A program made the translations under genes and the position numbers. Shown in pieces: positions 19,648 to 50,657 of a stretch of 64,000 nt of DNA. Source of the DNA: Thermobifida alba. GTDB taxonomy: Bacteria > Actinomycetota > Actinomycetes > Streptosporangiales > Streptosporangiaceae. The notes beneath the pieces were generated by a model, which saw nothing but the letters and a program-made list of their open reading frames with translations, searched no databases and was not told the origin of the DNA. The first letter of the stretch is position 1, and the number at the start of each line of letters is the position of its first letter. The stretch lies in the NCBI RefSeq assembly GCF_023208015.1, contig NZ_CP051627.1, positions 992,001 through 1,056,000 on the forward strand, read 5' to 3'.

Positions 19648-19786
19648 GTGCTCCTCCGATGCTGTGGGGTGCGACGAGCATGCCACGTCCGGGCGCGCCG
19701 CGCCGCCGGGACCGGAGAAAATCGGTGGCCCCGCGCCGCGGCCGCCCCTACAGTCGTCGCAGCACCCGGCGTCGAAAGCACCGATC

Positions 19787-21574: not shown

Positions 21575-21577
21575 ACC

Positions 21578-24443
<2,866 letters not shown>

Positions 24444-24448
<5 letters not shown>

Positions 24449-29947: not shown

Positions 29948-30103
29948 GCCGACTCCCTCCGAAGGGTTCTGCGGTGCCACCGCTGCCCCCTATCCAGGGG
30001 AGGTTTCCGGCAAACGCGGCTCGGCCGGGCATACGGCACGCGGACGGCGGGGCCCGCCCGGCCGGAGCCCCGGAGGCTTGCCCCGGGGTGGACAGACCAT
30101 TTT

Positions 30104-30123
30104 GAGAGTGATAATCATTTTCG
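30104..30123 (+). promoter_or_regulatory. Fur/Zur-family operator before the DHB operon
   Basis: GAGAGTGATAATCATTTTC (30104-30122) matches the classic Fur box GATAATGATAATCATTATC at 16 of 19 positions and is a 9-1-9 palindrome with 7 of 9 pairs. An overlapping 15-mer TGATAATCATTTTCG (30109-30123) matches actinobacterial Zur boxes of the form TGAAAATCATTTTCA at 13 positions. It lies about 60 bases upstream of the first gene of the operon in an AT-rich island. Confidence 0.65.
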
Positions 30124-30183
30124 GTAGCAAACGGCCGCACCTCACGCCGATCCGGCGCGACGGGACGAAGGGACAAAAACGCC

Positions 30184-30921
30184 GTGGACGACCACTACAG
30201 GGCCTCGGCCGAGTACATCGACATGATGATCGCCCCCTGGTGGGAGAGCGCCGCGCCGCTGCTGGCCGGGGCCCTGCACGGCCTGGACGCCGCGTCGGGG
30301 CCGATCGTGGACGCGGGGGCCGGGAGCGGGCGGGCCCTGCGGACGGTCGTCGAGGCGGTCCCCGGCGCGGAGGTGCTGGCGGTGGAGCCCTCGCCCGGGA
30401 TGCGCGCCGCCCTGTTCACCCGCGTCCTCGCCGACGAGCGGCTGCGCACGCGCGTCACCGTGGTCGCCGGCGGCCTGCCCGGGGCCCGGCTGCCGGCCCC
30501 CCTCGGCGCACTGGTCGCCATGAACGTGATCGGACACCTCCCCCCGGCCCACCGCGCCGGGTTCTGGGCGCTGGCCGCCGAACGGCTCGCCCCCGCCGGA
30601 CGCGTGGTGCTCAACCTCTCACCTCCCTTCGAACCCGTGGCGGTACCGCTGTCGCCGATGGCGGACGTGCGCGTGGGACACGCCCGCTACGAGGGGTGGG
30701 CGAGGGCGCAACCCGCGGGGCGGGACCGCCTCGTCTGGGAGATGACCTACCGGGTGACCGGAGCGGACGGCGCCGTCACCGAGAGCGCCGTCTCCTACGA
30801 GTGGTTCACGCTCGGCCCCGACGCCCTGGCCGCGGAGGTCGCCGGGCACGGGCTGGCCGCCGTCCCGCACGGCCCCGCCGACGCGGGCTTCTTCGTCGTC
30901 ACCCGGGAGGGGAGGCGGTGA
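30184..30921 (+). CDS. SAM-dependent methyltransferase, first gene of DHB operon
   Basis: Class I methyltransferase of 245 residues from GTG 30184 (VDDHYRASAEYIDMMIAPWW). SAM-binding motif I is IVDAGAGSGRALRT, motif II ends VLAVEPSPGM, and GALVAMNVIGHLPP follows. It is clearly paralogous to the methyltransferase at 50658-51386: both share the YIDMMI/FFDLVG-type N-terminus, AEPSPTMRA/VEPSPGMRA, and the C-terminal EWFTLG/DWETFG region. It overlaps dhbA by GTGA. A tailoring role in the metallophore is inferred from position and from the operator upstream. Methylation site (O, N or C) unknown. Confidence 0.82.
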   Translation: MDDHYRASAEYIDMMIAPWWESAAPLLAGALHGLDAASGPIVDAGAGSGRALRTVVEAVPGAEVLAVEPSPGMRAALFTRVLADERLRTRVTVVAGGLPGARLPAPLGALVAMNVIGHLPPAHRAGFWALAAERLAPAGRVVLNLSPPFEPVAVPLSPMADVRVGHARYEGWARAQPAGRDRLVWEMTYRVTGADGAVTESAVSYEWFTLGPDALAAEVAGHGLAAVPHGPADAGFFVVTREGRR

Positions 30922-31772
30922 CCCCGCACTCCGGCCGGGGCCGGGGCGGGTCCACCCGGACCGGCCCCGGCGAGGCGTCCTCCACGGCCCGGCGCGGCGC
31001 GGCACAGACCGGGGTCGCGGTGGTGACGGGGGCCTGCGGGGGCATCGGCGCCGCCGTCGTGCGGGCCCTGGCCGACCACGGCGTGCCCGTGGCCGCGCTG
31101 GACGTCGACGGCGGCGTCGAGCGCCTCGGCGAGCGGTTCGCCGCCCCGGGGCGGGCGCAGGTCCGCGGACACCTCGTCGACGTCGCCGACCCCGCGGCGG
31201 TGGAGGAGGCCGTGGCCCGCGTCGAGGAGGAGCAGGGCCCCGTCGCGGTCGCCGTCAACGTCGCCGGGACACTGCGCCCCGGACCGGTCCTCGACTACGC
31301 CGCGGCGGACTGGGCCGCCGTCTTCGCCGTCAACAGCGCGGGGGTGTTCCACGTCTCCCGGGCCGTGGCCCGGAGGATGGTGCCGCGGCGGACGGGGACG
31401 ATCATCACCGTCAGCTCCAACGCGGCGGACGTCGCCCGGACCGGCATGGCGGCCTACGCGGCGTCGAAGGCCGCCGCCACCCACTTCACCAGGTGCCTGG
31501 GACTGGAACTGGCACGCTTCGGCATCCGGTGCAACGTGGTCTCCCCCGGCTCCACCGACACCCCCATGCAGCGGGAGCTGTGGCGCGGCGGCGCCGGGGC
31601 GGCCCGCGCCGTCGCCGGGTCGCCGTCGGACTTCCGCGCGGGCATCCCCCTGGGGCGCGTCGCCGACCCCGACGACGTCGCCGCCGCGGTCCTCTTCCTC
31701 GCCTCGCCCGGGGCGCGGCACATCACCATGCACGACCTCCGCGTCGACGGCGGGGCCACGCTCGGCTCCTGA
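30918..31772 (+). CDS. dhbA: 2,3-dihydro-2,3-dihydroxybenzoate dehydrogenase
   Basis: Short-chain dehydrogenase that oxidises 2,3-dihydro-2,3-dihydroxybenzoate to 2,3-dihydroxybenzoate with NAD. GTG 30918 gives 284 residues, including an extra disordered Arg/Gly/Ser-rich leader of about 30 residues; an internal start is possible. Seen are the cofactor loop GACGGIGAA, the NVAGT motif, catalytic Ser in ITVSSNAAD and YAASK (Tyr-Lys). [17 protein letters not shown] is the signature of EntA/DhbA proteins. Its presence beside isochorismate synthase and isochorismatase shows the starter is the catechol acid, not salicylate. Confidence 0.9.
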
Positions 31773-31824: not shown

Positions 31825-32994
31825 ATGACCTCCGCACGCCCCCTCGCCCCGCCCCCCGTGTCCCTGGCCGACTACCGCCCCGGGGACTTCGCCTTCGCCG
31901 CGCCCGGACGCACGCTGCTGGCGCGCGACCCGGTCCGCGAGGTGGTCCTGCCGCCGGGGGAGCCGGAGAGCGGCCTGCGCGAACGGCTGGCCGAGGCGTT
32001 CGCCGCCGCGGGGGCGCAGTCGGCCCCGATCGCGGTGGGGGCGCTGCCCTTCGACCCCGGCGCCCCGGCGCGCCTCGCGGTGCCGCGCACCGCGGTGGCG
32101 GGGCCGCCGGAGCGCGCCCGGGTGCCGCCCGGCCCCCTCCCGCGCATCCGGGAGCGCCGCGAGGAGCCCGCCGCGCACGAGTACGCGCGCGGCGTCGCGC
32201 TGGCCGTCGACCGGATCGCCCGGACGGGGCTGCGCAAGGTCGTCCTGGCCAGGACCCTGCGGCTGGAGGCCGACCGCCCCGTCGACCCGGGGCTGCTGCT
32301 GCGGCGGCTCGCCGGGCCGGACCCGCGCGGGTACCTGTTCGCCGTGGACGTGCCCGCCGCGGGCCCGCGCACCACCCTGGTCGGCGCCAGCCCCGAACTC
32401 CTCGTCGCCAAACGGGGGAGGACCGTGTCCTGCCATCCGCTCGCCGGGTCCGCTCCCCGCCACGCCGACCCCGGCGTCGACCGGGAGCGGGCCCGCTCCC
32501 TGGCGGCCTCGGCCAAGGACCGGCGGGAGCACGCGTTCGTCGTGGCCGCCGTCGCCGACGCGCTGCGCCCCCTGTGCGCGGCCCTCGAGGTGCCCGCGCG
32601 GCCCGCCCTGACCGCGACCGCGACCATGTGGCACCTGGGCACCCGCATCACCGGGGAGCTGGCCGACCCGGGGGTGTCCTCGCTGGCGCTCGCCCGCGCG
32701 CTGCATCCCACCCCGGCGGTGTGCGGGACGCCCGCCGAGGAGGCGAGGCGGGCCATCGGCGAGCTCGAACCGTTCGACCGCGGCCACTACGCGGGAGCGG
32801 TGGGCTGGTGCGGCGCCGACGGCGACGGCGAGTGGGCGGTCGCCCTGCGCTGCGCCGAGGTCGCGGGCGGGCAGGTGCGGCTGTTCGCGGGCGCGGGGAT
32901 CGTCGCCGACTCCCGCCCGGCGGCCGAGCTCGCCGAGACCGAGGCCAAGTTCCGCACCGTGCTGGCCGCGCTGGCCGCCGCACCGGCGGAGTGA
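31825..32994 (+). CDS. dhbC: Isochorismate synthase
   Basis: Chorismate-utilising enzyme of 389 residues converting chorismate to isochorismate, the first step of 2,3-DHB formation. Conserved segments are [11 protein letters not shown] (catalytic Lys), [16 protein letters not shown], the [10 protein letters not shown] motif, and [14 protein letters not shown] with ETEAKF (Mg2+-binding Glu). It starts at ATG 31825 and ends 9 bases before the isochorismatase gene. Family members that also eliminate pyruvate to give salicylate look similar, but the adjacent DhbA and DhbB make isochorismate the likely product. Confidence 0.93.
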
Positions 32995-33003
32995 GGAGGA
33001 CCC

Positions 33004-33678
33004 GTGACCCTGCCCCGAATCGCCCCCTACCCGATGCCCGAGGAGCCGCCGCCCACCCGGGTCGGCTGGCGTCCGGAGCGCGACCGCTGCGCGCTGCTGG
33101 TCCACGACATGCAGCGCTACTTCCTCGGCGCCTTCCGCGCCGACGCCGAGCCGGTGCCCGCGCTGCTGCGCAACGTCCGAGCGCTCCGCGACCGCTGCGC
33201 CGACCTGGGCATCCCTGTAATCTACACCGTACAGCCGGGGTCCCAGAGCAGCGCGGAGCGGGGGCTGCTGCGCGCGTTCTGGGGGGAGGGGCTGCGCGAC
33301 GAGGAGCGGCACACCGCCGTGGTGCCCGAGGTGGCGCCCCGCGCCGGGGACACCGTGCTGACCAAGCGGCGCTACAGCGCCTTCGCCCGCAGCCGCCTGG
33401 CGGAGCTGCTGCGCGGGGCCGGCCGCGACCAGTTGGTCGTCTGCGGGGTCTACGCGCACATCGGCGTCCTCATGACGGCCTGCGACGCGTTCATGCGCGA
33501 CATCGAGCCGTTCGTCGTGGCCGACGCGGTCGCCGACTTCTCCGCCGCCGACCACGCCATGGCGCTGGACTACGCGGCGCGCCGCTGCGCCGCGGTCACG
33601 ACCGCGCGGGCCGTCCTGGAGGACCTGGACCGAGCGGTCCCCGGCCGGAACGGGGCCGTCCCGGCCGGGGACCGCTGA
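33004..33678 (+). CDS. dhbB: Isochorismatase, without carrier domain
   Basis: Isochorismatase of 224 residues hydrolysing isochorismate to 2,3-dihydro-2,3-dihydroxybenzoate and pyruvate. The opening IAPYPMPEEPPPTRVGWRPE is characteristic of EntB/DhbB. The catalytic Asp is in LLVHDMQRYF, with Lys in TKRRYSAF and the Cys-loop CGVYAHIGVL. EntB and DhbB normally carry a C-terminal aryl carrier domain; here the protein stops at about residue 224 and lacks it. A carrier domain instead sits at the start of the NRPS at 35467. Last gene of the DHB operon, converging on dhbE 10 bases away. Confidence 0.93.
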   Translation: MTLPRIAPYPMPEEPPPTRVGWRPERDRCALLVHDMQRYFLGAFRADAEPVPALLRNVRALRDRCADLGIPVIYTVQPGSQSSAERGLLRAFWGEGLRDEERHTAVVPEVAPRAGDTVLTKRRYSAFARSRLAELLRGAGRDQLVVCGVYAHIGVLMTACDAFMRDIEPFVVADAVADFSAADHAMALDYAARRCAAVTTARAVLEDLDRAVPGRNGAVPAGDR

Positions 33679-33688
33679 GGGGGAGGGG

Positions 33689-35311
33689 TCAGGGCGCCGG
33701 GGAGTCGGCCAGCAGTTCGCGCAGCCGCTTCTTGTCCACCTTGCCGATGCCGGTGAGCGGAAGGGAGGGGAGCCCGCGCAGCTCGTCGGGGACCTTGAAG
33801 GGGGCCAGCCCGCGCTCCAGCAGGGCCCGCCGCACCTGCTCCTGCGGCGGGCAGGGCCCGTCGGTCACCACGAACGCCACCGTGCGCTCGCCCAGGTGCG
33901 GGTCGGGCGCGCCCACGACCGCGGCGGCGCGCACGCCGGGCAGCGCGAGCAGGTGCTCCTCGACCTCCACCGCGGCGACCTTCTCCCCGGCCCGGTTGAC
34001 CTGGTCCTTGACCCGGCCGACGACGACCAGGTCGCCGTCGGCGGTGCGGCGCACCAGGTCGCCGGTCCGGTAGAACCCGTCGGGGGTGAACCGCGCCGCG
34101 TCCTGCTCCCGGGCCCGGTAGTAGCCGCGCAGCGTGTACGGCCCCCGGACCAGCAGCTCGCCGGGGGTCCCCGCGGGCACGGGGCGGTCCTCCTCGTCGA
34201 CGACGCGGATCTCGTCGGCGGGGGAGAGGGGGCGGCCCTGCGTGGTGCACACGACGTCGTCGGGGGCGTCCAGCGGGGTGTAGTTGTTCAGCCCCTCGGC
34301 CATGCCGAACACCTGCTGCAGGCGGCAGCCCAGCTCCGGGCGGACGCGGCGGGCGGTCGCCTCGTCCAGGCGGGAGCCGCCCACCTGGAGGACCTCCAGG
34401 CTGGACAGGTCGCGGCGGGTGCGCGCGGCCTCGTCCAGCCAGTGCGGCAGCAGGGCGGGGACCAGCGCGGTGATCGTGACCCGCTCGGCCTCGACGAGGG
34501 AGAAGGCGGTGGTGGGGCTGGGGTCGGGGCACAGCACGACCGTGCCGCCCGCCGCGACGGTGCCGAGGATGCCCGGGGAGACCATGGTGAAGTTGTGCGC
34601 CGCGGGCAGCACCGCCAGGTAGACCGACCCGCCGTGCAGTCCGCAGACCTCGGCCGAGGCACGCGCGTTGTAGCCGTAGTCGGCGTGGGTGCGGGGGATG
34701 AGCTTGGGCACTCCGGTGGTGCCGCCCGACAGCAGCAGCAGGGCCGGGTCCTCGGCGCGACCCGGGGGCGCCTCGGGCACGGGCCCGGCGGAGGCGGCCA
34801 GGCCGGCGACACCGTGGTGGCGGTCCGCCCCCGGCTCCCCGGCCACGACGACGTGGCGCAGCGTCGGGCAGGCGCGCGCCGTCTCCTCGGCCAGCAGCCG
34901 GGGGTCGCGCACACCCCGGCCGGCGGCGACGACGTGGGCGGCGGCGCCGCTGAGCCGGGCCAGCGCGACGACCTCGGCGCGGCCCAGGGACGGCAGTACC
35001 AGGACGGGGACCGCGCCCAGGCGCAGCAGGGCGAAGAGCACGGTCACGTACTCCTCGCAGTTGGGCAGCTGCACCAGGACGCGCTCTCCCGGGTGCAGCG
35101 GGAGGGCGGCCAGGCCCGCGGCCAGCCGGTCGACGCGCGCGTCCAGTCCGGCGTAGTCGAGCCTGCCGGAGGGCGAGACCAGGGCGGTGCGCGCGCCGTG
35201 GCGGCGCGCTCCCTCGCGCAGCAGCGCGTCGAGGGTCTGGTCGCGCCAGTACCCGGCCCGGCGGTACTCGGCCGCGACCTCCTCCGGCCAGGGAGTCCAG
35301 TCCTGTTCCAC
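33689..35311 (-). CDS. dhbE: 2,3-dihydroxybenzoate-AMP ligase
   Basis: Stand-alone adenylation enzyme of 540 residues from GTG 35311 behind GGAGG. It activates 2,3-DHB and loads it onto the aryl carrier of the adjacent NRPS. It opens with WTPWPEEVAAEYRRAGYWR, shared with EntE/DhbE. The ATP loop is LLLLSGGTTGVPKLIPR, the aryl pocket includes AHNFTMVSPG, and later motifs are VFGMAEGLNNYT, RTGDLVRR and LTGIGKVDKKRLRE with the catalytic Lys. The His-Asn in AHNF is typical of DHB/salicylate enzymes. It diverges from the NRPS across 155 bases containing a Zur-like box. Confidence 0.93.
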   Translation of the reverse strand: MEQDWTPWPEEVAAEYRRAGYWRDQTLDALLREGARRHGARTALVSPSGRLDYAGLDARVDRLAAGLAALPLHPGERVLVQLPNCEEYVTVLFALLRLGAVPVLVLPSLGRAEVVALARLSGAAAHVVAAGRGVRDPRLLAEETARACPTLRHVVVAGEPGADRHHGVAGLAASAGPVPEAPPGRAEDPALLLLSGGTTGVPKLIPRTHADYGYNARASAEVCGLHGGSVYLAVLPAAHNFTMVSPGILGTVAAGGTVVLCPDPSPTTAFSLVEAERVTITALVPALLPHWLDEAARTRRDLSSLEVLQVGGSRLDEATARRVRPELGCRLQQVFGMAEGLNNYTPLDAPDDVVCTTQGRPLSPADEIRVVDEEDRPVPAGTPGELLVRGPYTLRGYYRAREQDAARFTPDGFYRTGDLVRRTADGDLVVVGRVKDQVNRAGEKVAAVEVEEHLLALPGVRAAAVVGAPDPHLGERTVAFVVTDGPCPPQEQVRRALLERGLAPFKVPDELRGLPSLPLTGIGKVDKKRLRELLADSPAP

Positions 35312-35401: not shown

Positions 35402-35422
35402 AAATGAAAACAGTTTTCATTT
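35402..35422. promoter_or_regulatory. Perfect palindromic Zur box between dhbE and NRPS genes
   Basis: A 10-1-10 perfect palindrome centred on A35412, with core TGAAAACAGTTTTCA (35405-35419). This matches the 7-1-7 Zur boxes known from Streptomyces and Mycobacterium (TGAAAATnATTTTCA type). It is nearly the only AT-rich patch in the cluster and stands between the divergent starts at 35311 and 35467. TATACAT at 35388-35394 is a possible -10 element, so a bound repressor could silence both genes. Confidence 0.82.
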
Positions 35423-35466: not shown

Positions 35467-38400
35467 GTGCGGGAACCGGTCGCGGCGGTCCGGCAGCGGG
35501 TCGCGGAGATCCTCGGCACCACCGACTTCACCGACGGCGACGACCTCTTCGACCACGGCCTGGACTCCCTGGGCCTGATCCGCCTGGTCGGCGAGTGGCG
35601 GGAGAGGGGCGCCGAGGTCACCTTCGAGGAACTGGCCGCCGCGCCCACCGTCAAGCAGTGGGCGGCGCTGCTGGAGCACGCCGCCCCGACCCCGCCCCGG
35701 GCCGCGGCGGCGGCCGCGCCGGACGCCGACGCGCCGTTCCCCCTCGCCACGATGCAGCACGCCTACTGGATCGGCCGCCAGGACGAGCAGCCGCTCGGTG
35801 GGGTCGCCGCGCACTTCTACACCGAGTTCGACGGCCGCGCGGTGGACCCCGAGCGGCTCGACGCGGCCGTCGCCGCCGTCACCGGGCGCCACCCCATGCT
35901 GCGCGCCCGCTTCCTCGACGACGGCCGCCAGCGCGTCGCACCGCCCGGCCGCCACCGCCCGGTCACCGTGCACGACCTGCGCGGCCTGCCGCCGGAGGAG
36001 GCCGAACGCCGCCTGGCCGACCTGCGCGACCAGGCCACCCACCGGCGCATGGACGTCGCCTCCGGCCACGTCCTCGACGTGGCGCTGTCCCTGCTGCCCG
36101 GCGGGGCCACCCGGCTGCACGTCGACCTGGACATGATCGTGGCCGACGCGCTGAGCCTGCGGGTGCTGCTGGAGGACCTGGCCGCCGCCTACGACGGGCG
36201 GGACCTGCCCCCGCTGGACTACGACTTCGCCCGCTACCTCGCCGAACGCGCCGCACGCGACACCGCGGCCCGCCAGCGCGCCCGGGACTGGTGGCACCAG
36301 CGGCTGGCCGACCTGCCCGCGCCCCCGGAGCTGCCCACCGTCGTCGACGCCACCCGCCCCACCCCGGCCGGCGGCCCCCACACGCGCTCCACCCGGCTGC
36401 ACCACTGGCTCGACCCCGACCGCTCCCGGCGGTTCGCCGAACGCGCCCGCGCCCGCGGACTGACCCCCGCGGCCGCGCTGGCCACCGCGTTCGCCGAGGT
36501 CCTGGGAGCCTGGAGCGCCTCCCCCCGCTTCCTGCTCAACCTGCCGCTGTTCGACCGCGCCCCGCTGCACCCCGACGTCGACCGGCTGGTCGGCGACTTC
36601 AGCGGCTCGGTCCTGGTCGCCGCCGACACCACCGAGCCCCTGCCCTTCGCCGAACGGGCCCGCCGCACCCAGCAGGAGCTGCGCCAGGCCATCGACCACG
36701 GCGCCTACAGCGGGGTCGAGGTGCTGCGCGACCTCGCCCGCGCGGCGGGCGGCGCCCCCGTGCTCGCCCCCGTCGTCTACACCAGCGCCATCGGCCTGGG
36801 ACCCCTGTTCACCGACACCGTCCAACAGCGCTTCGGCCAACCGTCGTGGATCATCTCCCAGGGGCCGCAGGTGTGGCTGGACGCGCAGGTCACCGAACTC
36901 GACGGCGGACTGCTGCTCAACTGGGACGCGCGCGAGCGGGTGTTCGCCCCCGGCTTCCTCGACGCCGCGTTCGCCGCCTACCGCGGCCTGGTCGACGCGC
37001 TGGTCGACACCTCCGAGGCATGGCGGGCCCCCTACCGGCCCCGCCTGCCGGAACTGCGGCGGCGCGCGGCCGCGGCCGTCGACGCCGAAGCGCCCGCGCC
37101 GCGCCCCCTGCACCGCGCGTTCTTCGAACACGCCCGCCGCGCCCCCGACCGCACCGCCGTGGTCGCCCCCGACGGAACCGGAACCGGCTACGGGGAGCTG
37201 GCCGAACGCGCGCTGCGCGTCGCCGGGGCGCTCGCCCCGCTCGTCGAACCCGGAGACACCGTCGCGGTGGCGCTGCCCCGCGGCCGCGACCAGGCCGCCG
37301 CGCTGCTCGGCGTGCTCGCCGCGGGCTGCGCCTACCTGCCGGTGGGCGCCGACCAGCCGCCCGCCCGGCTCGCCCGCGTCCTGGCCCGCGGACGGGCCGC
37401 GCTGCTGCTCACCGACGCCGACGGCACCGCGGCCGCCCCGGAGGTGCCCGTCCTCGGACTGGCCGAGGCGCTGGCCGCCGACCCCCTGCAACAGCCGCGC
37501 GACGTCTCCCCCGACGCGCCCGCCTACCTGCTGTTCACCTCCGGCTCCACCGGAGAGCCCAAGGGGGTGCAGGTGCCGCACCGGGCGGCCGCCCACACCG
37601 TCGACGTGCTCAACGCCCTGCTGGGCATGACCGGCGCCGACCGCACGCTCGCCCTCGCCGAAGCCGACTTCGACATGTCGGTCTACGACCTGTTCGCGCC
37701 GCTGTCGGCGGGCGGCGCCGCGGTCCTCGTCGAGCCGGAGGCGCGCCGCGACGCCGCGAACTGGGCGCGCACCGCCGTCCGCGGCGGCGTGACCGTCCTC
37801 AACTGCGTGCCCACCCTCCTCGACATGCTGCTCACCGCGGCCGAGTCGGGACTGGCGGAGCTGCCGCCGCTGCGGGCGGTGCTGCTCGGCGGCGAGCGGG
37901 TCGGCGCCGATCTGCCCGCCCGGCTGCGCGCCTTCGCCCCCGGCTGCCGCTTCCTCGCGCTGGGCGGCATGACCGAGGCCGCGATCCACTCCACGCTCCA
38001 GGAGGTCGACCGGGCCGACCCCGCGTGGAGTTCGGTGCCGTGGGGCCGACCCCTGCCCGGCGTGCGCTGCCGCGTCGTCGACTCCCAGGAGCGCGACCGC
38101 CCCGACTGGGTCCCCGGCGAGCTGTGGGTGGGCGGCGCGGGACTGGCCGACGGCTACCGGGGCGACCCCGCCGCGACCGCCGACCGGTTCGTGGAGCGCG
38201 ACGGGCAGCGCTGGTACCGCACCGGCGACCTGCTGCGCTACCGCCCCGACGGGACCCTGGACTTCCTCGGCCGCGTCGACCACCAGGTGAAGGTGCGCGG
38301 CGTGCGCGTCGAACTCGGCGAGATCGAGGCCGCCCTGCGCGCCCACCCCGAGGTGGGCGCCGCGGTGGCGCTCGCCGAGGAGGGGCCCGCCCCCCGCCTG

Positions 38401-41400
38401 GCGGCGGCGGTCGCCGCCGACGGCGGCGACGGCACCCTGCCCGCACGCCTGGCCGAGCACGCGGCGTCGCTGCTGCCCGCGGCCATGCTGCCCGAGCGGA
38501 TCGTGGTCCTGGACCGCCTGCCGCTGACCGCCAACGGCAAACCCGACCGGGCCGCCGTGGCCCGGCTGGTGCGCGGACACTCCCGCGGCGGGGGCGGGAC
38601 GGGCGACGCCCCCCGCGGACCGGTCGAGCAGGAGGTCGCCCGGATCTGGGCCGACCTGCTCGGGTGCGACCGGGTCGGCCGCGACGACAACTTCTTCGCG
38701 CTGGGCGGCGACTCCCTGCTGGCCACGCGCGTGGTCGCGGCGCTGCGCGCGGCCGGGCACGCCGACGCGGGGGTCGCCCGGCTGTTCGCCGAACCCGTGC
38801 TGCGGGACTTCGCCGCGTCCCTCACCGCGCGGGGGCCGGCCCGGCGCGCCCCCGCCGTCCGCCCCGACCCCGCACACCGGCACGACCCCTTCCCGCCCAC
38901 CGAGGTGCAGCGCGCCTACCTGCTGGGCCGATCGCCCGAGTTCACCCTCGGCGGCGTCGGCACCTACCACTACAGCGAGTTCGACGGGGCCGAAGTGGAC
39001 CTGGACCGGCTGGAGCGGGCGTGGAACCGGCTGGTGCGGCGGCACGACATGCTGCGGGCGGTCTTCGACGACCACGGCGACCAGCGGGTCCTGGCGGAGG
39101 TGCCCGCCTACCGCATCGCCGTCGTCGACGCCGCCGACACCGACCCCGCACCCGCTCTGGCCGCGCTGCGCGAGCAGATGTCGCACCGCCTGTTCGACCC
39201 GACCCGGTGGCCGCTGTTCGAGGTGCGCGCCGTGCGGTACACGCGCGACGGCGAACGGCGTACCCGCCTCGGGATCGGACTGGACTACATCGTCCTGGAC
39301 GCGCTCAGCATCATGACCCTCTACACCGAACTGGACCGGCTCCACACCGACCCCGACGCCGAGCTGCCGCCGGTCGAGGTGTCCTTCCGCGACTACGTCA
39401 CCCAGGTCCGGGCCGACCCCGAGCGCGTGGAGGCGGCGCGCGCCTACTGGCGGGAACGGATCGCCGCGCTGCCGCCGGCCCCCGACCTGCCCCTCGCCGT
39501 CGACCCCGCCGACGTCGACCGCCCCCGCTTCACCCGCCGCGCCGACCGGCTGGCCCCAAGGGAGTGGCGGGCGCTGGCCGGCCTGGCCCGCTCCGCCGGG
39601 ATCACCCCCTCCACCCTGCTGCTGGCCTGCTACGCCGACGTGCTCGCCGCGTGGAGCGGGCAGACGGAGCTGAGCCTGACGCTGACCCTGTTCAACCGCT
39701 CCGAGGTCCACCCGCACATCTCCCGCGTCCTGGGCGACTTCACGTCGCTGTCGCTGACCTCCTACCGGCGCGGCCCCGGGCAGGGGCTGCTGGAGGCGGC
39801 CCGCGCGCTGCAGCGGCGGCTGGGCGCCGACCTGGACCACCGCGACGTCTCGGCCGGCTGGGTGCTGCACGAGCTCGCGCGGCGCACCGGCACCGCCCAG
39901 CCCGGCGTGCCGGTGGTGTTCACCAGCTCCCTGGGCGTGGGCGGCGGGGAGGCGTCCATGGACCTGTCGCCCGGCTTCCCCGGACGGATCTGGGGGCTGT
40001 CGCAGTCGCCCCAGGTCCACCTGGACAACCAGGTGCTCCAGGTGGGCGGCGGACTCGACGTGTACTGGGACGCCGTCGAGGAGCTGTTCCGCCCCGGCGT
40101 GCTCGACGCCATGTTCGCCGCCTACCTGGACCTGCTGCGCGACCTCGCCGCCACCGGGCGGATCGCCGCTCCCGACGACGTGCTGCCGAGCGGGCAGCGC
40201 GCCGCGCGCGACCGGGTCAACGCCCCCGCGGCCCCGGCGGTGCGCGCGGTCCTGCACGAGGCGGTGTTCGCCGCCGCCGACCGCGCCCCCGACCGGCCCG
40301 CGGTCGTCACCGACGGCGGTGTGCTCACCCACGGCGAGCTGGCCGAGCGCGCGCTGCGGATCGCGGCGGGCCTGCGGCGGCGCGGCGTCGCCCCCGACGA
40401 CGCGGTCGCGGTGTGCCTGCCCAAGGGCCCCGACCAGGTCGCCGCCGTGCTGGGCGTGCTGGCCGCCGGGGCGGTCTACGTGCCGGTCGGCCCCGACCAG
40501 CCGCGGCTGCGCCGGGACCGCGTCCACCGCGCGGCCCGGATCGCCTTCACCGTCGGCGCGGGCGGGGACCCGGCGCGGCGGGCCCGGCCGGAGGAGCTGT
40601 ACGCCGAGCCGCCGCTGGACGCCCCCGTGCCCCGCCACCCCGACGACCTCGCCTACGTCGTCTTCACCTCCGGCTCCACCGGCGAGCCCAAGGGCGTCGA
40701 GGTCACCCACGCCGCCGCGGCCGCCACCGTCGCCGACGTCAACGAACGCTACGGCGTCGGCCCCGACGACCGGGTCCTCGGCCTGTCCGCGCTCGACTTC
40801 GACCTGTCGGTCTACGACATCTTCGGCCTGCTCGGCGCGGGCGGCGCCGTCGTCCTGCCCACCGAGGAGGAGCGGCGCGACGCCGCGCGCTGGCGCGACC
40901 TGGCGGTCCGGCACCGGGTGACGGTGTGGAACACCGTGCCCGCCCTGCTGGACATGCTGCTGCTCGCCGCGGAGGGCGCCGAGTTCCCCCCGCACCTGCG
41001 CCTGGCCCTGGTCTCCGGCGACTGGGTGGGCACCGACCTGGCCCCCCGGCTGCGCGCCGCCACCGCGGGCCGCGCCCGCCTCGTCGCGCTCGGCGGCGCC
41101 ACCGAGGCCGCGATCTGGTCCAACGCCTTCGACGGCGGCCACGCCCCGCCCGGGTGGCCCTCCGTGCCCTACGGCTACCCGCTGCGCAACCAGCGCTACC
41201 GGGTCGTCGACGCCCACGGCCGCGACTGCCCCGACTGGGTGCCCGGTGAGCTGTGGATCGGCGGGGGCGGTGTGGCCCGCGGCTACCGGGGCGACCCGGA
41301 GCGGACCCGCGCGAAGTTCGTCACCGCCGCCGGACAGCGTTGGTACCGCACCGGCGACCTGGGACGCTACCGGCCCGGCGGGGTGCTGGAGTTCCTCGGC

Positions 41401-41982
41401 CGCCTGGACCGGCAGGTCAAGGTCGCCGGGCACCGCCTGGAACCCGGCGAGGTCGAGGCGGCGCTGGAGGAGCACCCGGCCGTGCGCCGCGCGGCCGTGG
41501 TCGCGGTCGGACCGCGCCAGAGGCGGCGGCTGTGCGCGTTCGTCACCACCGGCGAGCCCGCCCCCGACCCCGGCGAACTCACCGCGCACCTGGCCGAACG
41601 CCTGCCCCGCCCCGCCGTTCCCGCGGTGGTCCGCGCGGTGGCGGAGTTCCCGCTGACCCCCAACGGCAAGGTGGACGTCGCCGCGCTCGCCGACCTCGCC
41701 GCACCCGCCGCCGAGACGGAAGGCGCCGCACCGGCCGACGACGTCGAACGCCGCCTCGCCGAGGTCTGGGGCGGACTCCTCGACACCCCCGTCACCGACC
41801 GCGAGGCCAACTTCTTCGCGCTGGGCGGCACCAGCCTGCTGGCCATCCGCATGATCGGCGAACTGCGCCGGGTCTTCGGCGCGGAGGTGTCCACCCGCGC
41901 CTTCCTGGCCGCCCCGACCCTCGCCGCACTGGCCGACCAGGTCCGCGCCGCCGTCGGCGCGGACGAGACCGGCGAGATCTGA
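35467..41982 (+). CDS. NRPS 1: ArCP-Cy-A-PCP-Cy-A-PCP
   Basis: Metallophore synthetase of 2171 residues, GTG start. Aryl carrier 1-80 (LFDHGLDSLGL, Ser34). Cyclisation domain 1, about 90-540 (DMIVAD at 222). Adenylation 1, about 550-1025 (FTSGSTGEPKG at 690; pocket residues DMYNLGLIH). PCP at Ser1083 (LGGDSLL). Cyclisation domain 2, about 1140-1590 (DYIVLD). Adenylation 2, about 1600-2065 (pocket DLYNLSLIW, the cysteine code). PCP2 at Ser2123 (LGGTSLL). It would take 2,3-DHB from DhbE and build two cyclised five-membered rings. The first pocket resembles the Thr code DFWNIGMVH more than Cys. No thioesterase, so the chain passes to NRPS 2. Confidence 0.95.
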   Translation: MREPVAAVRQRVAEILGTTDFTDGDDLFDHGLDSLGLIRLVGEWRERGAEVTFEELAAAPTVKQWAALLEHAAPTPPRAAAAAAPDADAPFPLATMQHAYWIGRQDEQPLGGVAAHFYTEFDGRAVDPERLDAAVAAVTGRHPMLRARFLDDGRQRVAPPGRHRPVTVHDLRGLPPEEAERRLADLRDQATHRRMDVASGHVLDVALSLLPGGATRLHVDLDMIVADALSLRVLLEDLAAAYDGRDLPPLDYDFARYLAERAARDTAARQRARDWWHQRLADLPAPPELPTVVDATRPTPAGGPHTRSTRLHHWLDPDRSRRFAERARARGLTPAAALATAFAEVLGAWSASPRFLLNLPLFDRAPLHPDVDRLVGDFSGSVLVAADTTEPLPFAERARRTQQELRQAIDHGAYSGVEVLRDLARAAGGAPVLAPVVYTSAIGLGPLFTDTVQQRFGQPSWIISQGPQVWLDAQVTELDGGLLLNWDARERVFAPGFLDAAFAAYRGLVDALVDTSEAWRAPYRPRLPELRRRAAAAVDAEAPAPRPLHRAFFEHARRAPDRTAVVAPDGTGTGYGELAERALRVAGALAPLVEPGDTVAVALPRGRDQAAALLGVLAAGCAYLPVGADQPPARLARVLARGRAALLLTDADGTAAAPEVPVLGLAEALAADPLQQPRDVSPDAPAYLLFTSGSTGEPKGVQVPHRAAAHTVDVLNALLGMTGADRTLALAEADFDMSVYDLFAPLSAGGAAVLVEPEARRDAANWARTAVRGGVTVLNCVPTLLDMLLTAAESGLAELPPLRAVLLGGERVGADLPARLRAFAPGCRFLALGGMTEAAIHSTLQEVDRADPAWSSVPWGRPLPGVRCRVVDSQERDRPDWVPGELWVGGAGLADGYRGDPAATADRFVERDGQRWYRTGDLLRYRPDGTLDFLGRVDHQVKVRGVRVELGEIEAALRAHPEVGAAVALAEEGPAPRLAAAVAADGGDGTLPARLAEHAASLLPAAMLPERIVVLDRLPLTANGKPDRAAVARLVRGHSRGGGGTGDAPRGPVEQEVARIWADLLGCDRVGRDDNFFALGGDSLLATRVVAALRAAGHADAGVARLFAEPVLRDFAASLTARGPARRAPAVRPDPAHRHDPFPPTEVQRAYLLGRSPEFTLGGVGTYHYSEFDGAEVDLDRLERAWNRLVRRHDMLRAVFDDHGDQRVLAEVPAYRIAVVDAADTDPAPALAALREQMSHRLFDPTRWPLFEVRAVRYTRDGERRTRLGIGLDYIVLDALSIMTLYTELDRLHTDPDAELPPVEVSFRDYVTQVRADPERVEAARAYWRERIAALPPAPDLPLAVDPADVDRPRFTRRADRLAPREWRALAGLARSAGITPSTLLLACYADVLAAWSGQTELSLTLTLFNRSEVHPHISRVLGDFTSLSLTSYRRGPGQGLLEAARALQRRLGADLDHRDVSAGWVLHELARRTGTAQPGVPVVFTSSLGVGGGEASMDLSPGFPGRIWGLSQSPQVHLDNQVLQVGGGLDVYWDAVEELFRPGVLDAMFAAYLDLLRDLAATGRIAAPDDVLPSGQRAARDRVNAPAAPAVRAVLHEAVFAAADRAPDRPAVVTDGGVLTHGELAERALRIAAGLRRRGVAPDDAVAVCLPKGPDQVAAVLGVLAAGAVYVPVGPDQPRLRRDRVHRAARIAFTVGAGGDPARRARPEELYAEPPLDAPVPRHPDDLAYVVFTSGSTGEPKGVEVTHAAAAATVADVNERYGVGPDDRVLGLSALDFDLSVYDIFGLLGAGGAVVLPTEEERRDAARWRDLAVRHRVTVWNTVPALLDMLLLAAEGAEFPPHLRLALVSGDWVGTDLAPRLRAATAGRARLVALGGATEAAIWSNAFDGGHAPPGWPSVPYGYPLRNQRYRVVDAHGRDCPDWVPGELWIGGGGVARGYRGDPERTRAKFVTAAGQRWYRTGDLGRYRPGGVLEFLGRLDRQVKVAGHRLEPGEVEAALEEHPAVRRAAVVAVGPRQRRRLCAFVTTGEPAPDPGELTAHLAERLPRPAVPAVVRAVAEFPLTPNGKVDVAALADLAAPAAETEGAAPADDVERRLAEVWGGLLDTPVTDREANFFALGGTSLLAIRMIGELRRVFGAEVSTRAFLAAPTLAALADQVRAAVGADETGEI

Positions 41983-42055: not shown

Positions 42056-45000
42056 GTGAATGCCGCCCAGGGGCCCTTCGAGCCCGTTGCGACCCTGCTG
42101 GAACAACTGCGCGCCGAAGGCGTCCACCTGTGGGAGGACGGCGGCCGGCTGCGCTACCGCGCCCCCGCCGGAACACTGACCGACCAGCGCCGCGCACTGC
42201 TGCGCGCCCGCCGCGACGAGGTCGTGGCCCTGCTGCGGGCCGAGGAGGCCCCGTCGCTGACCCCCGACCCCGCCCGGCGCCACGACCCCTTCCCCCTCAC
42301 CGACGTCCAGGGCGCCTACCTCGTCGGCCGGGGGACGGCCTACGACTACGGCGGGGTGGCCTGCCACGCCTACGCCGAACTGGAGCTGCCGCCCCTCGAC
42401 CCCGACCGGCTGCGCCGGGCCTGGGACGCCCTGGTGCGGCGGCACGACATGCTGCGCGCGGTCGTGTCGGCCGAAGGCCACCAGCGGGTCCTGGCCGAGG
42501 CCCCCCAGCCCTCGCTGACCGTCACCGACGCGCGCGGCGGCGACGTCGGGGCGCGCGCCCGCCACACCCGGGAGCGGCTGCGCGACCTGGTCCCCGACCC
42601 CGCGGCCTGGCCGCTGGTGCGCCTGCACCACACCCGCGGGGACGACCGCTCGGTCCTGCACCTGTCGGCCGACCTGCTCGTCGCCGACTACGCGAGCGTG
42701 CGGCTGCTGCTGGACGAGCTCGCCGCGCTGTACGCCGACCCCGGCCGCGAACTCCCCGCGATCGGCGCGACCTTCCGCGACTACGTGCTGGCCCAGCGCG
42801 CCCTCAAGGAGGGGGCGCGCTACCACCGCGACCGGGCCTACTGGATGGAGCGGATCGACGACCTCCCTCCCGCCCCGGAACTGCCGCTGGCGGACCGCGC
42901 CGCCGACGCCCCGCCCCGCTTCACCCGGCGCTCGGCCGCGCTCTCCCCGGCCGAGTGGGAGGAGCTACGCGCCCGGGCCGCGGCCCGCGGCGTCACCCCC
43001 TCCTCCGTGGCGCTGGCCGCCTACGCCGAGACGGTCGCCCGGTGGAGCCGCCGCCCCGACTTCACCCTCAACCTCCCCGCGGCGCGCAGACTGCCCCTGC
43101 ACCCCGACGTCGACCGGATCGTCGGCGACTTCACCACCGTCACCCTGCTCGCCGTGCGCGCCGGCGACGGGGCGACCTTCACCGAACGCGCCCGCACCCG
43201 GCAGGCGCGGCTGGTCGAGGACCTCGACCACTCCCTGTACTCCGGTGTGGAGCTGCTGGCCGAGCTGTCGCGCCGCCGCGACGAGGCGGCCGTGCTCATG
43301 CCGGTCGTCTTCACCGGCGCCCTCGGCGCCGCGGCGGGCGCCGAGGGCGGCTCGTGGGCCGACCACGAGGTCCACGGCCTCAGCCAGACCCCCCAGGTGT
43401 GGCTGGACTGCCAGGTCACCGAGACCGGCGGCGGCCTCGCCGTCCGCTGGGACGTGCGCGACGGGGTCCTGCCCGACGGGGTGGCCGACGACGCCTTCGC
43501 CGCCTACGTCGCGCTCCTGCGCGACCTGGCCGCCTCCGACGGGCCGTGGGACGCCGCCGACCCGGTCCGCCTCCCCGAGCACCAGGCGCGCCGGCGCGCC
43601 CGCGCCAACGCCACCGCGGGCCCGCTGCCCGAGGGGCTGCTGCACGAGGAGGCGCTGGCCGCCGCGCTGCGCACCCCCCACGCCCCGGCTGTGATCACCT
43701 CCCAGGGCGCGCTCGGCCACGGAGCGCTGTGGGGCCGGGCCGCGGCCCTCGCCGCGGTGCTCGCCGAACGGGGCTGCCGCCCCGGCGACCGGGTCGCCGT
43801 CGCCATGGACAAGGGCGTCGAGCAGGTCGTCGCCGTCTGCGCCGTGCTGCTCGCCGGGGCCGCCTACGTGCCCGTCGACGTCGCCCAGCCGGCCGCGCGC
43901 CGCAACGCCATCCTCGACGACGCCGGGGTGCGCTGCGTCCTCACCCAGTCGTGGCTGGCCGCCGCGGCCGACTGGGGCGCGCACACCGACCCCGTCGCCG
44001 TCGACCTCGTCCCCGCCGCCGAGCCGCCCGCGCAGCTCCCGCCGCGCGCCGCCGACCCCGACGACCTCGCCTACGTGATCTACACCTCCGGCTCCACCGG
44101 CACCCCCAAGGGGGTGATGGTCTCCCACCGCGCGGCCCGCAACACCGTCGACGACGTCAACCGGCGCTTCGCGGTCACCGCCGAGGACCGCGTCCTGGGA
44201 CTGGCCTCCCTCGGCTTCGACCTGTCGGTCTACGACGTCTTCGGCCTGCTCGGCGCGGGCGGCGCCGTCGTGCTGCCCGACGCCGAACGCAGGGGGGACC
44301 CCTCGCACTGGGCCGAACTGGCCGCCGAGCACGGGGTGACGCTGTGGAACTCGGTGCCCGCGCAGATGCAGATGCTCTGCGACTACCTGGACGCCGACCG
44401 GACGGTCGAGCTGCCCTCGCTGCGCGTGGCCCTGCTGTCGGGGGACTGGATTCCGGTCGCCCTGCCCGACCGCGTCCGCGCCCGCGTGCCCGGACTGTCC
44501 GTCGTCAGCCTCGGCGGTGCGACCGAGGCGGCCATCTGGTCCATCCACCACCCGGTCGAGCGGGTCGACCCCGACTGGCCGAGCATCCCCTACGGACGTC
44601 CGCTCACCAACCAGACCTTCCACGTCCTGGACGGGGCGATGCGCGACCGCCCCGACTGGGTGCCCGGCGAACTGTACATCGGCGGAGCGGGCGTGGCCCT
44701 GGGCTACCTGGGCGACGAGGCCCGCACCGCCGAGCGGTTCGTGACCCACCCGGCCACCGGGGAGCGCCTCTACCGCACCGGCGACATGGGACGCTACCGG
44801 CCGAGCGGCGACATCGAGTTCCTCGGCCGCGAGGACTCCCAGGTCAAGATCCGCGGCCACCGGGTCGAGCTGGCCGAGATCGAGGCCGCGCTGCAGACGC
44901 ACCCGGCCGTCGCCGCCGCCGCGGTCGTCGCCGTGGGGGAACGCGACTCCCGCAGGCTCGCGGCGTTCGTCGAGACCGCCCGCCGCGACGGCACCGGACC

Positions 45001-47548: not shown

Positions 47549-48693
47549 CCGACGCGGACCAGCCTCTGGTCGGCCTCGTCGGCGCCTCCGGAGCCGTCGG
47601 AGCCCAGGCCGCGCGCGCCCTGCGCGGCCTGGGCCGCACCCGGCTGCGGCTGGGCGGGCGCCGCGCGGCCCCGCTGCGCGCCCTGGCCGCCGAACTCGGC
47701 GCGGGGGCCGAGGCCCGCCCCGTCGACCTCGACGACGCCGCGGCGCTGGCGGACTTCTGCTCCGGCTGCGCCGTCGTGGTCAACTGCGCCGGCCCCTCCT
47801 ACCGGATCGTGGACCGGGTGGCCCGGGCGGCGCTGGCCGCCGGCGCCGACTACGTCGACGTCACCGGCGACGCCCCGGTGCACGCCCGGCTCAGCCGGGA
47901 CGGCCTCGCCGGGCGGCGCACCGCCGTGCTGTCGGCGGGGGTGCTGCCGGGCCTGTCCGCGCTGCTGCCCCGCTGGGCGGCGCGGGGCCGCCTGGAGCGC
48001 GTCGTCGCCTACACCGGCGGCCTGGAGCGGTGCACCGAGGCCGCGGCGGCCGACCTGCTGCTGTCGCTGCCCGGAAGCGCGCGCCAGGCCGCCGTCTTCG
48101 GCGAGCCCCTGGCCGTCTGGCGCGCGGGGCGGCGCGTGCCCCGCGCCCTGCAGGCCCGCGACGGCGTCCGCGCCCCCTTCTTCCCCGAGGAGGCGTTCGT
48201 CCAGCCGTTCCTGACCGGCGAGGCCGAACGGCTCGCCGCCGCGCTCGGCCTGCGGGAGGTGCAGTGGCACACCGTCCACCCGGGGCCGCGGACCCGCGCG
48301 GTGCTGACCGGGGCGGCCGGCCGCCCCGACGGCGCCGACGGGGCGACCGCTGCCCGGCTGCGCGCCGCAGCAGACCTCGACCTGGCCGGACGCACCCCCT
48401 ACTACCTGCTGGTCTTCCAACTGACCGAACGGGTGGAGGGGAAGGTGCGCGAACGCTGCCTCGTCGTCCGCACCGCCGACAGCTACCGCCTGAGCGGCCG
48501 CGTCGCCGCGGTGGCCGCGCACGAGGTGCTGCGCGGCGCGGTTCCCCCGGGCCTCCACTACGCCTGCGACGTCCTGGACCCGCGGACCACCGTGCGCCTG
48601 CTGTTCGACGACGCCGACGCGGGCACGCTGCACCTGCTGGACGGAGCCGCGGCGGACGGGACCGCGGCCGGGGTCGAGGAGGGGGCGCTGTGA
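47545..48693 (+). CDS. Saccharopine-dehydrogenase-like NAD(P)-binding protein
   Basis: Protein of 382 residues coupled to NRPS 2 by ATGA. An N-terminal Rossmann loop (GLVGASGAVGAQAARAL) and VVVNCAGPSYRIVDRVARA with DYVDVTGDAPVH are typical of saccharopine-dehydrogenase-like or trans-acting enoyl-reductase-like proteins. Comparable genes occur in coelibactin-type clusters between the NRPS and imine-reductase genes. It may reduce or otherwise adjust a thiazoline or the released carboxyl/aldehyde end, but its reaction is unproven. The second half (LVVRTADSYRLSGRVAAVAA) fits the family's substrate domain. Confidence 0.75.
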   Translation: MTDADQPLVGLVGASGAVGAQAARALRGLGRTRLRLGGRRAAPLRALAAELGAGAEARPVDLDDAAALADFCSGCAVVVNCAGPSYRIVDRVARAALAAGADYVDVTGDAPVHARLSRDGLAGRRTAVLSAGVLPGLSALLPRWAARGRLERVVAYTGGLERCTEAAAADLLLSLPGSARQAAVFGEPLAVWRAGRRVPRALQARDGVRAPFFPEEAFVQPFLTGEAERLAAALGLREVQWHTVHPGPRTRAVLTGAAGRPDGADGATAARLRAAADLDLAGRTPYYLLVFQLTERVEGKVRERCLVVRTADSYRLSGRVAAVAAHEVLRGAVPPGLHYACDVLDPRTTVRLLFDDADAGTLHLLDGAAADGTAAGVEEGAL

Positions 48694-49841
48694 CGGCCGC
48701 CGCCCGCCCCGTCCGCCCGCTGCGCACCATCGTCTGCGGCACCGGGTTCGGCCGCTGCTACGTCCGGGCCGTGCGGGCCATGGACGGGGAGTTCGAACTG
48801 GTCGGCATCCTCGCCAGGGGCGGCGACTACTCCCGCGACTACGCGCGCGCCCAGGGCGTGCCGCTGTACACCTCGGTCGCCGAGGTGCCCGACGACGTCG
48901 ACGTCGCCTGCGTCGTCGTCGGCGCGGCCGTCTCCGGCGGGCCGGGCAGCGAACTGGCCCGCGCGCTGCTGGCCAGGGGCGTCCACGTCCTCCAGGAGCA
49001 CCCCGTCCACCACGACGAACTGGCGCAGACCCTGCGCGCGGCCCGCGCCGCGGGCCGCGTCTACCACCTCAACCCCTTCTACCGGCACGTCGCCCCGATC
49101 ACCCGGTTCCTGCGGGCCGCCGAGGCGCTGCGCGGACACGGGCGCCCGCTGTTCGTCGACGCCGCCTCCGCGATCCAGGTGCTCTACCCCCTGCTCGACG
49201 TGCTCGGCCGCGCGCTGGGCGGCGTCCGGCCGTGGGCGTTCGCCGGCCCCCACCCCCAGGAGGAGGCCGTGGCCGCGCTCGCGCACTCCCCCCAGCCCTA
49301 CCGGGTGCTGCACGGGGTGGTCGGCGGTGTGCCGGTGGTGCTGCGGGTGCAGAACCAGCTCGACCCGGCCGACGGCGACAACCACGCCCTGCTCTGGCAC
49401 CGCCTGGCCGTCGGCGCGGAGGGCGGGGTGCTCACCCTCGCAGACACCCACGGCCCCGTGCTGTGGAGCCCTCGGCTGCACGTGCCGCGCGACGCCCACC
49501 GGCGGCTGACCACCGACGGGGAGGGCACCGCGCACCTGGACGAGCCCAGCACCACGGTGCTCGACGGCACCGCGCCGCGCCCCTTCCGCGGCGTGTTCGA
49601 CCACACCTGGCCGGAGGCGATCGCCCGGGCGCTGCGCGGACTCGCCGCCGACATCGCCGCCCGCGCCGACCCCCTGGCCCGCGGCCAGTACGACCTGTCG
49701 GTGTGCCGCATGTGGCACGACGTCACCGCCCGGCTCGGCCGGCCCGAGATCATCCGCCCCGCGCCCCCGCGCCCGCTGCGCGCCGCCGACGTCTGCGGCC
49801 CCAGCCCGAGTGCCCCCTCCGCCCAGACAGGACCACGATGA
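48690..49841 (+). CDS. Thiazolinyl imine reductase (PchG/Irp3-like)
   Basis: NADPH-dependent Gfo/Idh/MocA-type reductase of 383 residues from GTG 48690, overlapping the previous stop. It opens with TIVCGTGFGRCYVRAV and has VLQEHPVHHDEL and YHLNPFYRHVAP, as in PchG, Irp3 and YbtU, which reduce one NRPS-bound thiazoline to thiazolidine. The C-terminal helix motif QYDLSVCRMWHDVTARLG also matches. Its presence, with two cysteine modules, predicts one thiazolidine ring in the product. Catalytic Lys is replaced by His in this family (EHPVHH), consistent with known members. Confidence 0.92.
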   Translation: MTAAARPVRPLRTIVCGTGFGRCYVRAVRAMDGEFELVGILARGGDYSRDYARAQGVPLYTSVAEVPDDVDVACVVVGAAVSGGPGSELARALLARGVHVLQEHPVHHDELAQTLRAARAAGRVYHLNPFYRHVAPITRFLRAAEALRGHGRPLFVDAASAIQVLYPLLDVLGRALGGVRPWAFAGPHPQEEAVAALAHSPQPYRVLHGVVGGVPVVLRVQNQLDPADGDNHALLWHRLAVGAEGGVLTLADTHGPVLWSPRLHVPRDAHRRLTTDGEGTAHLDEPSTTVLDGTAPRPFRGVFDHTWPEAIARALRGLAADIAARADPLARGQYDLSVCRMWHDVTARLGRPEIIRPAPPRPLRAADVCGPSPSAPSAQTGPR

Positions 49842-50623: not shown

Positions 50624-50657
50624 CCCGACCGACCCGCGGAAGGAAGAGAGCACCCCC

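Follow-up and report, generated by a model that had tools for sequence, protein, structure and literature searches.

A coelibactin-type gene cluster with a predicted 2,3-dihydroxybenzoate starter and putative Zur boxes in Thermobifida alba

Introduction

Catechol genes are routinely taken as the sign of an iron siderophore. In Thermobifida alba, genes of this kind stand beside an NRPS cluster whose promoter seems to belong to a different metal. The cluster lies in a stretch of 64,000 nucleotides (contig NZ_CP051627.1, positions 992,001 to 1,056,000), which was analysed whole and is called the window below. A first-pass annotation, made from the letters of the window, described a box for Zur, not for IdeR/DmdR, between the divergent genes for the starter ligase and the NRPS. 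It suggested that both starter activation and assembly would be tied to zinc starvation, implying a zincophore despite the catechol starter. Which metal does this cluster answer to, and which starter does it use?

In the coelibactin cluster of Streptomyces coelicolor, Zur ChIP sites have been reported for SCO7676 and for the promoter shared by the divergent SCO7681/SCO7682 (PMC5472717), whereas a study of DmdR1 reported no recovered sites there (PMC12161575). The predicted starter of coelibactin is salicylate (PMC10127202). The coelibactin pathway is reported as a salicylate source, and zinc-deficient medium is reported to raise the level of a compound made from that salicylate (PMC5445379). 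Coelibactin itself had not yet been isolated as of PMC3430247 and PMC10127202. Clusters have been labelled coelibactin by similarity in Nocardiopsis and Streptomonospora (PMC11475406, PMC12842786). Zur at a divergent coelibactin promoter is already published and is therefore not new; the surprise of the present locus lies only in the starter. Among the titles and abstract openings that we searched, a collection with subscription papers largely outside it, none describes a Zur-controlled DHB (2,3-dihydroxybenzoate) form of coelibactin or of another zincophore.

Results

The divergent promoter carries a Zur-type box

Box 1, AAATGAAAACAGTTTTCATTT, reads AAATGAAAAC-A-GTTTTCATTT and is, as the first-pass annotation had stated, a perfect 10-1-10 palindrome (centre 35412) flanked by the GTG starts of the divergent ligase and NRPS1 genes (Table 1). 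Its 15-bp core has no mismatch to TGAAAACNNTTTTCA, and it contains the 15-bp 7-1-7 palindrome of the published actinobacterial Zur consensus, taaTGaNAANNNTTNtCANta (PMC5472717). At up to three mismatches, TGAAAACNNTTTTCA gives four rows in the window (two sites on both strands), compared with a mean of 0.22 in 100 shuffles, one of which reached four. Palindromy alone was dropped as evidence: the window holds five perfect 10-1-10 palindromes (22 were counted across 30 shuffled windows), so the sequence of box 1 outweighs its symmetry.

Our Zur matrix was made from six of the ten sites found in the same genome outside the window, the four weaker ones (L008, L010, L011 and L012) being dropped by eye. 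The IdeR matrix was made from seven of nine genome sites (L020 and L021 dropped), or from six when the second dhb cluster was scored (L017, inside the tested region, dropped). With the thresholds set at 18 (Zur) and 17 (IdeR), five and one passes, respectively, occurred in 2000 shuffled upstream stretches. Box 1 scores 38.0 on the Zur matrix, the top match of the window, compared with 30.2-44.5 for the six training sites, a score that is partly circular because the training sites came from a pattern resembling the box. When the 155-bp intergenic region was shuffled 2000 times, 38.0 was never reached and 18 was reached six times. The best IdeR score in this region is -6.8, versus 24.2-33.0 for the IdeR training sites, and none of the nine genome sites of the IdeR/DmdR pattern (a 19-bp palindrome, TTAGG...CCTAA) falls in the window. 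We rejected control of this promoter by IdeR on the basis of both the matrix and the pattern. A simple scan found no sigma-70-type promoter.

Across the genome, a single 4.9-Mb contig, TGAWAAYNNTTWTCA occurs 12 times at up to one mismatch, versus no site in the reversed control. One of these boxes stands directly before a ZnuA gene (PF01297, 253 bits). Another precedes an operon of a znuC-like ABC ATPase gene, znuB (ABC-3) and a FUR-family gene, with a class II tRNA synthetase gene adjoining. When the matrix was made from two znuA sites and one znu-operon site only, the sites at 35402 and 30106 ranked first and second in the window. A search of the genome for the FUR family gave two genes, one directly after znuB; the 8-kb region around the other has no Zur-type box (best score 3.7). 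The genome also has two genes for DtxR-type regulators. These matrices, the boxes before znuA and the znu operon, and the conservation described below all favour the reading of box 1 as a site for Zur and not IdeR/DmdR. Two further Zur-like boxes, 73 bp apart (C1:1881828 and 1881901; L024), lie between an MFS transporter gene and the gene for a 239-aa protein without a Pfam match.

A second Zur-like box precedes the dhb operon

Box 2 is absent from the first-pass annotation. It scores 29.2, which was reached by none of 2000 shuffles of its 203-bp region; a weaker match (20.8) overlaps it and begins at 30100. Box 2 precedes an operon of a methyltransferase gene, dhbA, dhbC and dhbB, and Zur would thus control the making of the starter in addition to its activation and the NRPS assembly. 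The gene for an F420-dependent LLM-class oxidoreductase (TIGR03557, 28967-29980) adjoins box 2, and L160 has an ORF of similar appearance, judged by eye, next to its dhb operon.

The set of enzymes for a DHB starter is complete in the window: isochorismate synthase, isochorismatase, DHB dehydrogenase and DHB-AMP ligase, with the cut-offs of TIGR00543 and TIGR04316 reached and those of the DhbC and DHB_AMP_lig equivalogs not reached. The notion that the window lacks a DHB dehydrogenase proved wrong, as dhbA encodes one. Only one chorismate-binding enzyme was found among the scanned ORFs of the window; it is DhbC-like and has 106 bits on the salicylate synthase model (cut-off 325).

Table 1. Predicted features of the cluster, in window coordinates.
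Feature	Position	Strand	Remarks
Zur-like box 2 (putative)	30106..30126	.	score 29.2; counterpart in 14/14 relatives
Methyltransferase	30184..30921	+	Pfam Methyltransf_12/25; homologues near the cluster in some relatives
dhbA, 2,3-dihydro-2,3-dihydroxybenzoate dehydrogenase	31017..31772	+	TIGR04316, 324.5 bits (cut-off 300), genome C1:1023017-1023766; exact start uncertain
dhbC, isochorismate synthase	31825..32994	+	TIGR00543 over cut-off; DhbC model 421 bits, under its cut-off of 486
dhbB, isochorismatase without carrier domain	33004..33678	+	present in 14/14 relatives
Aryl-AMP ligase, DHB type (predicted)	33689..35311	-	Ser at DhbE-240, Asn at DhbE-337; DHB_AMP_lig 618 bits, under cut-off of 723.55
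Zur box 1 (putative)	35402..35422	.	divergent ligase/NRPS1 promoter; perfect 10-1-10 palindrome, matrix, conservation
NRPS1	35467..41982	+	aryl carrier-Cy-A-PCP-Cy-A-PCP
NRPS2	42056..47548	+	TubC docking-Cy-A(MT)-PCP-TE; TE motif GYCLG with Cys
Saccharopine-dehydrogenase-like enzyme	47545..48693	+	homologue in 12/12 downstream regions of relatives
Thiazolinyl imine reductase	48690..49841	+	TIGR01761, 336 bits, over cut-off; PDB YbtU/Irp3
Protein without Pfam match at 1e-5	49810..50661	+	homologue in 9/12 downstream regions of relatives
Methyltransferase	50592..51386	+	domain match
ABC transporter half	51038..53200	+	true start probably after 51386
ABC transporter half	53152..54936	+	two ABC genes in 12/12 downstream regions of relatives
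P450	54983..56209	+	57% identical to CYP105N1 (3tyw) of coelibactin
Solute-binding protein SBP_bac_5	56474..57979	+	no NCBIfam cut-off reached; best models nickel/peptide type
ABC permease (BPD_transp_1)	58134..59765	+	domain match
ABC ATPase, two ABC_tran stretches	59141..61246	+	start uncertain

The ligase pocket has a DHB-type Ser and the NRPS genes are of the coelibactin type

In our alignments, the position of DhbE-240 is Ser in the window ligase, as in DHB ligases, and Cys in a salicylate ligase. The meaning of this position for starter choice we take to be that given by the work on DhbE. The position of DhbE-337 is Asn in the window ligase, compared with Val in canonical DHB ligases; Asn at this site is confined to the lineage of the window, since the 17 of 110 other ligase rows that share it are all lineage members. 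Ser at DhbE-240 is found in 15 of 15 lineage loci, whereas Cys takes this position in every one of the 12 loci outside the lineage whose ligase has a Zur match upstream (eight and four in the two surveys below). The Cys of a salicylate starter ligase, as expected in a coelibactin-type cluster, was thus found in none of the lineage loci, and Ser in its place suggests that the cluster is a coelibactin variant and not coelibactin itself. The catechol starter proposed in the first-pass annotation agrees with the dhbA-dhbC-dhbB set and with the predicted DHB-type Ser in the pocket.

Judged by its predicted domains, the cluster has the architecture of coelibactin. It encodes an NRPS pair with Cy domains, an MT in the last module, a TE with an active-site Cys, a CYP105N-type P450 and a saccharopine-dehydrogenase-like enzyme, and a putative Zur box lies between its divergent ligase and NRPS genes; a thiazolinyl imine reductase is also present. 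Cy motifs stand in place of the usual condensation motif. The NRPS substrate is probably Cys, as suggested by the Cy domains and the thiazolinyl reductase, not by A-domain codes. The best solved relative of the P450 is 3tyw (57.4% identity over 408 residues), which is CYP105N1 of coelibactin (PMC3430247). Elsewhere, window positions 19637-24448 encode an RNA end-repair pair. One partner is an RNA ligase/AAA protein; its neighbour combines domains of the MJ1316, exo-endo-phos, 2'-5' RNA ligase and poly(A) polymerase-like kinds.

Both boxes are conserved in a lineage of relatives

We surveyed 297 genomes of the family, 159 of which had a ligase match at 1e-100, and scored the 30 best loci. Fifteen of the 30 (L117-L131: the window and 14 relatives, in six genera) encode Ser/Asn ligases, and all 15 have box 1 (scores 33.8-40.4). 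The remaining 15 comprise four Cys-type loci with a Zur match (28.4-37.3) and 11 loci without one. Ten Ser/Val loci among the best 30 have no Zur match above 7.7 in the 4.6-kb stretches scored, which end before the dhbA promoter. When the promoters of the 15 lineage loci were aligned, box 1 was the best conserved 21 bp (0.914 versus a mean of 0.53). On the ligase side, box 1 is followed by TGTATAGCA, which is conserved and matches exactly in 14 of 15 loci; this sequence is plausibly a -10 element, which would place box 1 over the -35.

A second Zur match (22.9-40.2) precedes the dhb genes in all 14 relatives, and in none of the 14 does an IdeR match exceed 17 around the ligase and dhb genes. 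Around the ligase, dhbB is present in all 14 relatives, dhbA in 12 and dhbC in six; in four relatives, no DhbC homologue at E<=1e-60 was found in the genome. DHB supply thus varies among lineage members, dhbC being absent from the operon region in eight of the 14 and dhbA in two. These gaps leave room, in part of the lineage, for another source of isochorismate or for a related starter.

Downstream regions were compared in 12 of the 14 relatives (G080 and G232 were left out, as their contigs end close by). The genes for the saccharopine-like enzyme, the reductase, two ABC proteins, the P450 and the solute-binding protein occur in 12 of 12. Homologues of the P450 at 70-90% were found in all 13 of the relatives searched that have this ligase (G232 left out) and in neither of two same-genus genomes without it. 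Six of the 12 downstream regions (L161, L163, L164, L167, L168 and L170) have further Zur matches of at least 29 beyond the uptake genes.

Nine of the 14 relatives have a FUR-family-like gene between box 2 and dhbA (L148:5466-5858 (+), L156:5360-5755 (-) and L159:3447-3842 (-), with homologues in L151-L155 and L158). For three of these genes, a check against Pfam gave a match to PF01475. The proteins match the FUR protein of the znu operon in the window genome at 34-43%. No FUR-family gene lies between box 2 and dhbA in the window; a methyltransferase gene holds that place. Additionally, genes for CobW-type GTPases (PF02492/PF07683) adjoin the dhb operon in two relatives, at L152:4857-6068 (+) and L159:4105-5208 (+).

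Canonical actinobacterial DHB loci carry IdeR-like boxes

A wider set of ligases comprised 80 relatives kept of at least 513. Among these 80, a Zur match lies upstream of the ligase in all three Ser/Asn loci, and an IdeR match in none of them. The 35 Cys-type loci divide into eight with Zur, 22 with IdeR and none with both, the rest having neither. Neither match lies upstream of the ligase in the 41 Ser/Val loci, and one Ser/Leu locus has IdeR. The eight Cys-type Zur loci (Streptomyces, Pseudonocardia) all carry NRPS1 homologues (46-58%), so they look like salicylate coelibactin.

The region upstream of the ligase is an unfair control for Ser/Val loci because their ligase gene usually lies inside the operon, and we therefore scored the region upstream of dhbA. 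This was done for 36 of the 41 loci; five without a dhbA match of at least 45% were left out, including one actinobacterial locus, L094, which was checked separately. Record titles assign 20 of the 41 loci to actinobacteria, and dhbA is present in 19 of these 20. Within the same 80 kept of at least 513, an IdeR match of at least 21 lies directly before dhbA in 17 of the 19; one above 20 lies within about 6 kb in 20 of 20, L094 without dhbA included; and no Zur match in the 20 loci exceeds 11.1. Scores above 18 on the Zur matrix occur before dhbA in eight of the 36 canonical DHB loci, five in Bacillota and three in Myxococcota. These sites are probably Fur boxes, and because they pass the Zur threshold the motif alone cannot separate Zur from Fur.

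A second dhb cluster lies elsewhere in this genome, at about 2.058-2.062 Mb of C1; the IdeR score directly before its dhbA is 25.5, and no Zur match exceeds 12. In both trees described below, the ligase of this second cluster falls with the one from Thermobifida fusca, and a genome of the same genus has a ligase identical to that T. fusca protein. A third dhbA homologue at 3.35 Mb (L116, 3338000-3357000) has as neighbours an isochorismatase gene and one for a distantly related chorismate-binding enzyme (31%), has no Zur or IdeR match above 12, and possibly belongs to a 3-hydroxyanthranilate-type pathway.

The ligase groups with Cys-type Zur-boxed ligases

A tree of 44 rows, hand-picked from one of 111 rows, joins the Ser/Asn ligases to nine Cys-type Zur-boxed ligases (SH-aLRT 99) and places the canonical DHB ligases in a clade of their own (99). 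A single clade of Ser/Asn and Ser/Val ligases, a grouping defined with knowledge of the larger tree, was rejected (p-AU 0.009). A clade of Ser/Asn ligases with all eleven chosen Cys-type Zur ligases was not rejected (p-AU 0.124). In the 111-row tree the Ser/Asn ligases also join Cys-type Zur ligases, with a support of only 83 for a group that takes in L143, which is of the Cys type but lacks a Zur match. In both trees, two of the Cys-type Zur ligases, L061 and L085, are placed elsewhere. These results suggest that DHB specificity was likely, though not provenly, gained independently of the canonical DHB ligases.

Discussion

Our results make it likely, as far as sequence can tell, that the window encodes a zinc-repressed metallophore cluster of the coelibactin type with DHB in place of salicylate as its starter. 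The zincophore suggested by the first-pass annotation gains from the apparent kinship to the Zur-bound coelibactin cluster, and we regard it as putative.

The coelibactin cluster (SCO7676-SCO7692) resembles the window cluster in the Zur sites at its divergent promoter (PMC5472717), where we place putative box 1, in its two NRPSs, the P450 CYP105N1 and ABC transporters (PMC3430247), and in a TE with an active-site Cys, an unusual trait, and a saccharopine-dehydrogenase-like protein (PMC10127202). We compared the S. coelicolor cluster by its description, apart from the sequence of CYP105N1. It differs in its predicted salicylate starter, whereas the window has a DHB-type ligase and a dhbA-dhbC-dhbB operon with its own Zur-like box. 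Sorangibactin of Sorangiineae MSr11367 also has a coelibactin-like NRPS, a P450 and a TE with Cys, but it is myxobacterial, takes its salicylate starter from a salicylate synthase and is described as a siderophore (PMC10127202). The window shares dhbA, dhbC, dhbB and a DHB ligase with canonical actinobacterial DHB loci, of which L048 from Thermobifida fusca is an example. However, these loci have an IdeR-like box before dhbA, no Zur match, a Ser/Val ligase and only distant NRPS similarity.

The cluster could instead be an ordinary iron siderophore cluster in which an iron-sensing repressor of the Fur type, not Zur, binds the box. DHB is a typical iron ligand, and the probable Fur boxes before dhbA in other phyla score well on the Zur matrix (eight of 36 loci). 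We nevertheless consider this highly unlikely: the same kind of box stands before znuA and the znu operon, the FUR search gave only the gene after znuB and one without a box nearby, and the genome has two DtxR-type genes and marks its other dhb cluster with an IdeR-like box. Alternatively, the ligase may take salicylate, as in plain coelibactin, with the neighbouring dhb genes feeding something else. The architecture equals that of coelibactin, and the 44-row tree groups the ligase with Cys-type Zur-boxed ligases and not with canonical DHB ligases. This reading is quite improbable given the Ser at DhbE-240 in every lineage locus, compared with Cys in the 12 other Zur-matched loci. Moreover, dhbB and a Zur match before the dhb genes occur in all 14 relatives, and the only chorismate-binding enzyme among the scanned ORFs is DhbC-like and falls well under the salicylate synthase cut-off.

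It is also conceivable, although unlikely, that a related ring, for example 3-hydroxyanthranilate from a near-identical pathway, serves as the starter. EntC is what separates the two pathways (PMC12971057), dhbC is absent from the operon region in eight of 14 relatives, and the Asn in the ligase pocket is unusual; against this, the window itself has a DhbC-type isochorismate synthase, as do the operon regions of six relatives.

Taking DHB as the starter and zinc as the metal, we have drawn up a model that builds on the observed boxes, gene content, motif identity, conservation and contrast with IdeR-boxed DHB loci, and in which Zur binding and repression, the choice of substrate, the structure of the product and zinc as its cargo are what we infer. 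When zinc is plentiful, Zn-Zur would sit on box 1 and turn off the starter ligase gene and the NRPS operon, and would sit on box 2 and turn off the methyltransferase-dhbA-dhbC-dhbB operon. When zinc is scarce, Zur would leave both boxes, and DHB would be made, adenylated and loaded onto the carrier domain of NRPS1. Three cyclising modules, probably with Cys, would then extend DHB to a catechol-thiazoline/thiazolidine product. We propose that this product is exported and re-imported as a zinc complex.

We lean towards the view that one actinobacterial family moved from a salicylate zincophore to a catechol zincophore. A ligase lineage of the salicylate type would have acquired DHB specificity independently of the canonical DHB ligases, with Ser and Asn in place of Cys and Leu/Ile, and a dhb operon would have been added and wired to Zur, while a separate dhb cluster wired to IdeR was kept. 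If this is true, one building block is made twice in the same cell under two metal sensors. A relative of coelibactin with a different starter and a clear predicted trigger, zinc starvation, offers a concrete route to the product. The regulator sites argue that the chelating group usually assigned to iron would here serve zinc, which bears on the mining of genomes for metallophores and on the evolution of metal selectivity.
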